Below, piece by piece: positions 44,017 through 45,613 of a stretch of DNA of 64,000 bases. The stretch is taken from contig DASZWQ010000033.1 of assembly GCA_035546535.1 (NCBI GenBank), positions 1 through 64,000 of the forward strand, written 5' to 3'. This stretch comes from Pirellulales bacterium. GTDB taxonomy: Bacteria; Planctomycetota; Planctomycetia; Pirellulales; JACPPG01. Each line of letters begins with the position of its first letter. The first letter of the stretch is position 1. Under the pieces are notes generated by a model. The model was given only the letters and a program-made list of their open reading frames with translations, was not told the origin of the DNA and made no database searches. A program made the translations under genes and the position numbers.

Positions 44017-44466
44017 AAAATTCCGATTGCTGCCGACCGGAGGCGCGGAGACCTCCGAGGAAAGATTTCGGGCGAGTGATCATCCAACGCGATCCGCCGC
44101 GCACATTTCCGAGCGCGCTTGATCGCCTCGATTTGCTGCGCCGACGGGGTCCTTTGGGCCGGCCCCTTTTCGCAAGGAGTGAATGCGGCCGGTCCGTTTA
44201 CTTAACTTTGCTGGGATTCGACCAATTTCATTGCCACGGCGCAGAGAGCTCGCGCAGGGTTTGTACTGTTGTATCGGATGAAGCGCGACCAGCCCTTGAC
44301 GCGTGCAGGCAAATGCCCAAAGGGGATAGCAGGCTTGCAATCGGCATCGCCACAAGGCGTTCGCATTGTATGACTTCGGTGCACGCGGGCAGCGAGCGAT
44401 CGGCGACCAACTCAGACAGCCGGGGGTGCGTGGGCGGGCAGGGTTTAGTTTGCCTTGCAAACAGGT
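44017..44466. other. Intergenic region upstream of the Rrf2 gene
   Basis: 450 bases between the divergent lipoprotein gene and the regulator promoter. It contains no coding frame I would support on either strand, and no repeat. The lipoprotein promoter should lie at its left end. Confidence 0.4.
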
Positions 44467-44495
44467 TGACCAGCATGGCGAGACTGGCTATCCTG
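44467..44495 (+). promoter_or_regulatory. Sigma70-type promoter of the Rrf2 gene
   Basis: TTGACC (44467-44472), a 17-base spacer and TATCCT (44490-44495): five of six and four of six consensus bases with ideal spacing. The expected transcription start is near 44502, inside the palindrome that follows. Confidence 0.65.
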
Positions 44496-44498
44496 CCA

Positions 44499-44523
44499 AA
44501 CATGTAAAACAGGTACATGTTTT
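44499..44523. promoter_or_regulatory. Perfect palindromic operator, probably bound by the Rrf2 protein
   Basis: AAACATGTA (44499-44507) and TACATGTTT (44515-44523) are exact reverse complements around a 7-base centre. The size and A/T-rich, CAT-containing arms resemble NsrR sites (11-1-11, AAGATGCAT-type). It covers the expected start of transcription and ends 12 bases before the start codon, so binding would block the regulator's own gene. Confidence 0.7.
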
Positions 44524-44535
44524 AACTAAATCGCC

Positions 44536-44970
44536 ATGCGACTCGCCCTGCTTACCGATTACGCCCTGAGAACCCTGATTTACCTCGTCGGTAAGCCCGG
44601 CAGAGCCAACATCCACGATGTCTCTGACTTCTACCGCATCTCGCCCCACCACGTGGCCAAGGTTGTCCACCGGCTGGGACGTCTCGGTTACGTGCGCAGT
44701 ATTCGCGGGGTCGGCGGCGGCATCGAGATGGCCCGCGACCCCGATGACATCCGCATTGGCGAAGTCATCGTGGCCTTCGAGGGGCACATGCATCTTTTGG
44801 AATGCGTGGCAACGCCCAAGGTGTGCGTCATTCAGCCGCAATGCCGTTTGCGCGACGTGCTGGCCGAAGCGGAACGGCTGCAACGGGAGTACCTCAACAG
44901 CGTGCGTCTGTCGGACATCGTTCAACCAGGGGGCCAATTGGCCGATTTGCCGGTCTACGAGCTGCGCTGA
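44536..44970 (+). CDS. Rrf2-family transcriptional regulator, NsrR-like
   Basis: A 144-residue Rrf2 protein. The winged helix-turn-helix lies at residues about 1-60 (LALLTDYALRTLIYLVGKPG, then SPHHVAKVVHRLGRLGYVRS), with the wing GVGGGIEMARDPDDI. The cluster ligands are the three cysteines in ECVATPKVCVIQPQC (spacing 6 and 5), as in NsrR, which senses nitric oxide through a Fe-S cluster. The gene is probably autoregulated through the palindrome directly upstream. The DUF3365-type heme protein gene follows after 100 bases and is the likely target partner. Confidence 0.93.
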   Translation: MRLALLTDYALRTLIYLVGKPGRANIHDVSDFYRISPHHVAKVVHRLGRLGYVRSIRGVGGGIEMARDPDDIRIGEVIVAFEGHMHLLECVATPKVCVIQPQCRLRDVLAEAERLQREYLNSVRLSDIVQPGGQLADLPVYELR

Positions 44971-45070
44971 CCACGCGCGAGTCGATCCTGCCCTGCTTTC
45001 ACGCCCTGATTCGGCGGCCGCGGGCCGCCCCGCATCGTTCGATCCCACCTGTCCTTCTGGAGAAGTCGTC

Positions 45071-45613
45071 ATGTTGTCTCGTTCTCGTTCATGGCTGGTT
45101 GTGGCGGTGTCTGGCGCAGCGTTAGGTGCGTTCCTTTTAGCGCCTCGATTTTCGGTCGATGCCGGCGAACCGGCGAAAGAAGACACGGCCGTGAAACGCG
45201 CTCGCGAGACCACGCGCATGCTCGACGACCTCTACAAGACCGCCGTAGTGCTGATCACCGAGCACTACGTCGAGGTCGATTCCGACCTGCCGGCCGGCAC
45301 GGCGGCAATCGCGCTGTTTGACGCGATGAAGAAGAAAGGATGGCACGAAGTGCGGCTGTTGGACGCAACCGGCCAGCCCATCGAGGAGAAAAACTCGCCA
45401 CAAGACGCGTTCGAAAAAGAAGCGGTCAAGCAACTCCTCGCGGGAGAAACCTGGCATGAACAGATCGTGGACCGCGATGGCAGTCGTTTCCTGCGCGCCG
45501 CGACGCCCATACCGGTCGTGCTGGCGAAATGCACGATGTGCCACGAGCACTACAAGCAGGCAAAGCCCAACGAGCCGATCGGCGCACTCAGCTACACGTT
45601 GAAGATCGACTGA
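45071..45613 (+). CDS. Tll0287-like heme sensor domain protein (DUF3365)
   Basis: A 180-residue exported protein. The signal runs through residues about 1-30 (SWLVVAVSGAALGAFLLA). The single domain is of the DUF3365/Tll0287 type, with IPVVLAKCTMCHEHYKQ carrying one c-type heme motif CTMCH. Such domains bind heme and have been proposed as redox or gas sensors. The ATG at 45071 has GGAG about nine bases before it; an open frame further upstream overlaps the regulator gene and is not coding. Adjacent to the Rrf2 gene in the same direction. Confidence 0.85.
   Translation: MLSRSRSWLVVAVSGAALGAFLLAPRFSVDAGEPAKEDTAVKRARETTRMLDDLYKTAVVLITEHYVEVDSDLPAGTAAIALFDAMKKKGWHEVRLLDATGQPIEEKNSPQDAFEKEAVKQLLAGETWHEQIVDRDGSRFLRAATPIPVVLAKCTMCHEHYKQAKPNEPIGALSYTLKID

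Follow-up and report, generated by a model that had tools for sequence, protein, structure and literature searches.

A putative NsrR-type operator ahead of a regulator gene and a DUF3365 heme protein gene in a Pirellulales bacterium

The closest described systems are the NsrR circuits of Streptomyces and of proteobacteria. In Streptomyces coelicolor, NsrR is an autoregulated Rrf2 repressor with 23-bp operator sites and very few targets, the regulon consisting of nsrR, hmpA1 and hmpA2 (PMC4861436, PMC9338935), and three cysteines and Asp8 ligate its [4Fe-4S] cluster (PMC5411485). The NsrR operators of Escherichia coli and other proteobacteria have an 11-1-11 geometry (PMC5320621, PMC1274295), as in the ytfE site AAGATGCATTTAAAATGCATCTT (PMC5320621), and the regulons include hmp, ytfE/dnrN, hcp and nnrS.

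The DUF3365 family was described in a 2026 preprint as a Cache domain with covalently bound heme c (PMC12889525). According to the same study, DUF3365 domains fused to signaling modules are NO sensors and a HAMP-fused member binds NO tightly, while the one stand-alone protein assayed so far, a Pseudomonas putida member with an axial cysteine, binds NO weakly, as does its cysteine-less variant, and redox roles were proposed for the stand-alone forms. Geobacter Cache hemes with a methionine ligand bind NO with displacement of the methionine (PMC8396549). Stand-alone DUF3365/Tll0287 proteins are widespread and without assigned function, the sole family study found assigning them a redox and not an NO role (PMC12889525); its main text makes no mention of operons, Rrf2 or Planctomycetes. 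In the literature searched (subscription literature and regulon databases were outside its scope), no paper naming both NsrR and DUF3365 was found.

Here, an Rrf2 regulator gene and the DUF3365 gene following it were analyzed in the window, i.e. the whole stretch of 64,000 nucleotides of a Pirellulales bacterium. The locus resembles the S. coelicolor system in its apparently autoregulated Rrf2 repressor, 23-bp operator, cluster-ligand positions and small number of targets; however, the regulators are only distantly alike (47 bits), and the target, a cytoplasmic flavohemoglobin there, would be an exported c-type heme Cache protein here. With proteobacterial NsrR it shares the 11-1-11 operator with closely similar arms and the repressor subfamily, whereas a search of the genome for Hmp, Hcp and ScdA_N gave no match. 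The heme protein has the PF11845 domain and single CxxCH motif of Tll0287, the P. putida protein and GSU0582/GSU0935, and like Tll0287 it is stand-alone and predicted to be exported; unlike these proteins, it lacks an axial cysteine and stands under an NsrR-type operator. A possible functional parallel is cytochrome c', a periplasmic NO scavenger, as both would encounter NO as exported c-type proteins with one heme; its fold is different, and the parallel is hypothetical. The following features were assigned:

44466 to 44494, + strand: sigma-70-like promoter TTGACC-17-TATCCT, assigned by sequence match, with a similar layout in most homologous loci
44499 to 44521, no strand assigned: putative NsrR-type operator AACATGTAAAACAGGTACATGTT, 23 bp, 11-1-11, overlapping the predicted start site
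44536 to 44970, + strand: nsrR-like gene for an Rrf2 regulator of 144 aa with Asp8, Cys90, Cys97 and Cys103
45071 to 45613, + strand: gene for a stand-alone DUF3365/Tll0287 (sCache_heme) protein of 180 aa, predicted to be exported, with PF11845 and CTMCH

Regulator, promoter and operator

The regulator was assigned to the Rrf2 family by PF02082 (114 bits, cut-off 30) and by TIGR00738, also above its cut-off. Its three cysteines, noticed already in the first-pass annotation, are spaced Cys90-X6-Cys97-X5-Cys103, and alignment to 5N07 added Asp8, so that the positions correspond to the cluster ligands of S. coelicolor NsrR, which was also the best match among solved structures. Asp8 and all three cysteines are kept throughout an aligned clade of 63 sequences. 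By model scores the protein is closer to NsrR (99 bits) than to RirA (57 bits), IscR (54 bits) or CymR. The cut-off of the NCBIfam NsrR equivalog (182 bits) was set aside as a membership criterion, because an authentic S. coelicolor NsrR fragment scored just 91 bits and thus also falls below it, the window protein scoring 99 bits and E. coli NsrR 293 bits. In a tree built from few columns, in which the deep order is not resolved, E. coli IscR stands apart on a very long branch. The nearest named relative, 88% identical, belongs to an uncultured Planctomycetaceae bacterium. The regulator itself is a further member of a type already known.

The promoter consists of TTGACC at 44466-44471, a spacer of 17 and TATCCT at 44489-44494, and it is the sole sigma-70-like match between 44400 and 45700 (mean of shuffles 0.3); the elements and spacer given in the first-pass annotation were correct, its position lying one base off the real start at 44466. 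It is directly followed by a perfect 9-N7-9 palindrome, AAACATGTA-AAACAGG-TACATGTTT, at 44498-44522, which ends 13 bases before the Rrf2 gene. Its center at 44510 lies approximately 9-10 bases past the expected start site and 26 bases before the ATG at 44536 (25 in the first-pass annotation). As a 23-bp site, the palindrome has the sequence AACATGTAAAA-C-AGGTACATGTT, which is the standard 11-1-11 form of NsrR operators and equals the E. coli ytfE site in geometry (PMC5320621); the S. coelicolor sites are likewise 23 bp long (PMC9338935).

AAACATGTA-N7-TACATGTTT occurs once in the window, and 100 shuffles gave no match at up to three mismatches. The first-pass annotation had suggested searching the genome for the motif upstream of other genes; the palindrome proved to be present in a single copy in the whole 6.36-Mb genome, even at up to three mismatches, and no operator of another gene was evident. 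A loose operator pattern gave 14 other matches in the genome, all overlapping ORFs and near the level of a control pattern (10), and further operators were rejected on these grounds.

Operator boxes and DUF3365 genes in related genomes

Relatives of the regulator were examined in an order-level sample of 146 genomes, 23 of which carry a homologue at E < 1e-27, and in a class-wide search of 297 genomes, where 69 genomes hold a relative. Since the sampled genomes include several of the same genus, the counts are not independent events. Neighborhoods of 1.5-2 kb around the regulators were scored with profiles, and the starts of some DUF3365 homologue genes were taken from profile matches. Known NsrR sites, the site in the window and the relatives encountered first all contributed to the arm pattern AASATGYA-N7-TRCATSTT, and the rows that shaped it are for this reason not independent tests.

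A box was present within approximately 100 bp upstream of 20 of the 23 order-level homologues, and the summed arm score reached 323, while 500 shuffles averaged 220 and did not exceed 234. In most homologous loci, a TTGACN element and a TA-rich -10 region stand just ahead of the box. The box was not recognizable, despite a following DUF3365 gene, in a deeper branch (G058, G080, G118 and G336) and in part of the clade, e.g. family f21. Absence of the palindrome upstream of close homologues had been named beforehand as refuting the reading of the locus; instead, the operator form was conserved before most homologues. That the palindrome arose by chance or is an unrelated repeat has a negligible probability in view of the conservation and placement of the boxes, its uniqueness in the genome and the shuffles. 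Together with the operator geometry and the cluster ligands, this conservation gives good support to the earlier proposal of an NsrR-like regulator with an autoregulatory switch.

A DUF3365 gene lies nearby, within the 1.5-2 kb scored, in 58 of the 63 close-clade regulators and in four members of the deeper branch, and was found in the same neighborhoods of none of the 20 outside relatives. In a gene-independent search, 25 exact boxes were detected in 18 of the 297 genomes (reversed control: 5), and their placement is nearly exclusive: 21 stand directly upstream of an nsrR or DUF3365 gene, one (G274:C2) approximately 0.4 kb upstream of a DUF3365 gene, and three (G237, G070 and G309) inside unrelated genes. 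At four loci (L157, L159, L162 and L164) the DUF3365 gene is opposite in strand to nsrR and has its own exact box on the DUF3365 side, no nsrR-side box above background being found in L157, L159 and L164; a fifth opposite-strand locus (L158) has a box on neither side. Some boxed DUF3365 genes are far from nsrR, and in one genus a second DUF3365 gene, which likewise carries an exact box, is clustered with the flavohemoglobin gene hmp (311 bits for 211 residues against the NO-inducible flavohemoprotein model). Since opposite-strand and distant DUF3365 genes can bear their own box, the boxes go with the heme-protein gene as well as with the regulator.

This placement bears on the view, taken in the first-pass annotation, that two sensors stand side by side, the exported heme protein sensing NO and relaying the signal in parallel to the cytoplasmic Rrf2 protein. 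DUF3365 domains fused to signaling modules are indeed NO sensors (PMC12889525), but the domain is stand-alone here and has no output module, and the boxes, which precede DUF3365 genes even where nsrR is distant or on the opposite strand, mark the heme protein as a regulated product. Two-compartment sensing is accordingly regarded as very improbable, and the heme protein is most likely a dedicated target of a repressor that would be lifted by NO. As far as the literature was searched, this pairing of DUF3365 with NsrR is undescribed.

Heme protein and proposed circuit

The DUF3365 assignment, made previously together with the CTMCH motif and the export, is supported by a PF11845 match above the gathering score (41 bits, cut-off 24.1, E = 3e-10), while a signal peptide at the N-terminus was recognized only by eye. 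Heme would be attached at a single c-type motif, CTMCH (residues 154-158), and a genome search found this single DUF3365 protein. A profile search among solved structures matched no DUF3365 structure, and an AlphaFold model of this protein built on two sequences (mean pLDDT 41) was left unused for the fold.

The mature part of the window protein has no further cysteine, and the axial cysteine of the Tll0287 subtype with Cys/His heme ligation was not found in it; more generally, none of 86 planctomycete DUF3365 proteins has a cysteine outside CxxCH in its mature part, so that these proteins are stand-alone yet without the P. putida-type ligand. The missing cysteine is no proof of NO binding, which is weak in the Cys-free P. 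putida variant too. Among 55 proteins of the C-x-M-C-H type, 46 retain Met50; as a universal sixth heme ligand it was rejected, since it is replaced in the remaining nine and in numerous further proteins. Another candidate is the Lys or His at position 56.

Taken together, these features probably represent a circuit in which an NsrR-type repressor lifted by NO controls itself and the DUF3365 heme protein. The Rrf2 protein would be a [4Fe-4S] repressor whose holo-dimer binds the 23-bp palindrome, which overlaps the predicted start site, and thereby blocks the promoter, from which nsrR and then the downstream DUF3365 gene would be read, although the gap of 100 bp between the two genes speaks against taking a single transcript for granted. 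NO, or a related nitrosative signal, would attack the cluster, release the repressor and open the promoter, and the cell would then make more repressor, restoring repression by negative feedback, and the exported mono-heme c-type Cache protein. In the periplasm, the latter would most likely encounter NO or the redox changes that follow from it, and could bind or scavenge NO with its heme or act as a redox partner.

In relatives, the boxed DUF3365 gene clustered with hmp and small ScdA_N-like ORFs beside some loci, the latter below the Pfam cut-off, provide a link to NO. In the genome of the window, no match to the usual NsrR targets Hmp, Hcp and ScdA_N was obtained, so that NO is assumed as the signal from the resemblance of the regulator to the NsrR family. 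This absence would also suit the same operator circuit with a cluster that senses oxygen or redox state or iron-sulfur status, as in IscR and RirA, and a heme protein taking part in a redox response; three-cysteine Rrf2 proteins sense several signals, and stand-alone DUF3365 proteins have been assigned redox roles (PMC12889525). Such a signal is nevertheless judged unlikely, given an NsrR model score well above those of RirA and IscR, the kept position of Asp8, the NsrR type of the operator and the clustering of a boxed DUF3365 gene with hmp in one genus.

For an NO-responsive circuit, the last step alone has a stronger competitor, in which the heme protein would be a cytochrome for electron transfer or redox buffering, without useful NO binding. 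Weak NO binding and the behavior of a redox protein were reported for the stand-alone P. putida homologue (PMC12889525), and Met50, a candidate sixth ligand of the heme protein, is kept in most but not all C-x-M-C-H forms; against this, the axial cysteine of the P. putida class is missing from all 86 planctomycete proteins and Met-ligated Geobacter Cache hemes do bind NO, displacing the methionine (PMC8396549). This role for the heme protein is a realistic possibility, if short of an even chance.

Since no Hmp, Hcp or ScdA_N match was obtained, the main output of a circuit with an NO-lifted repressor may be the heme protein. It is tentatively suggested, with rather less confidence, that the axial-cysteine-free stand-alone sCache_heme proteins of Planctomycetes are a dedicated envelope device for handling NO, as scavenger or NO-converting protein, which an NsrR circuit would make as its only or principal product and which would replace flavohemoglobin where that is absent. 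A conserved NsrR-type operator dedicated to DUF3365 in Planctomycetes would provide a concrete signal (NO) and a circuit of one regulator and one target, tie an under-studied heme-protein family to nitric oxide, and extend regulation of the NsrR type to a phylum from which the literature searched gave no account of it.

Further observations at DUF3365 loci

Several neighboring genes were recorded in the class-wide search. Small ORFs resembling ScdA_N, a domain of proteins that repair iron-sulfur clusters in the NO response, are located beside the nsrR/DUF3365 pair at L157:1673-1858 and L164:2404-2655 (E 3e-6 to 4e-5, below the Pfam cut-off). Tandem DUF3365 genes of differing types are present at one nsrR locus in L124, L127, L135, L154, L157 and L159. 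In one genus, a single-PAS-domain protein is encoded between nsrR and DUF3365 (L125:2152-2583, L126:1967-2383). A conserved exported CxxCH protein with a motif like RISPRxPRALYFNDxSYxG, for which no Pfam or NCBIfam match was found, recurs downstream of nsrR/DUF3365 in L041, L042, L045, L046 and L201.

DUF3365 loci from genomes without this NsrR (L068-L085) have a different palindrome, GGAYnTTGACATCC, over a TTGACA-like element in approximately half of 13 loci. Another copy, GGAY-N6-RTCC, frequently follows after approximately 45 bp, and the palindrome perhaps points to a second regulator for the DUF3365 gene. A second Rrf2 type (CPLG...CPLH) is encoded divergently from DUF3365 in two genomes (L077:2248-2718, L085:2145-2705), and in another genus a CPLG...CPLH Rrf2 gene (L191:763-1182) is flanked by hmp on one side and by a boxed DUF3365 gene on the other.
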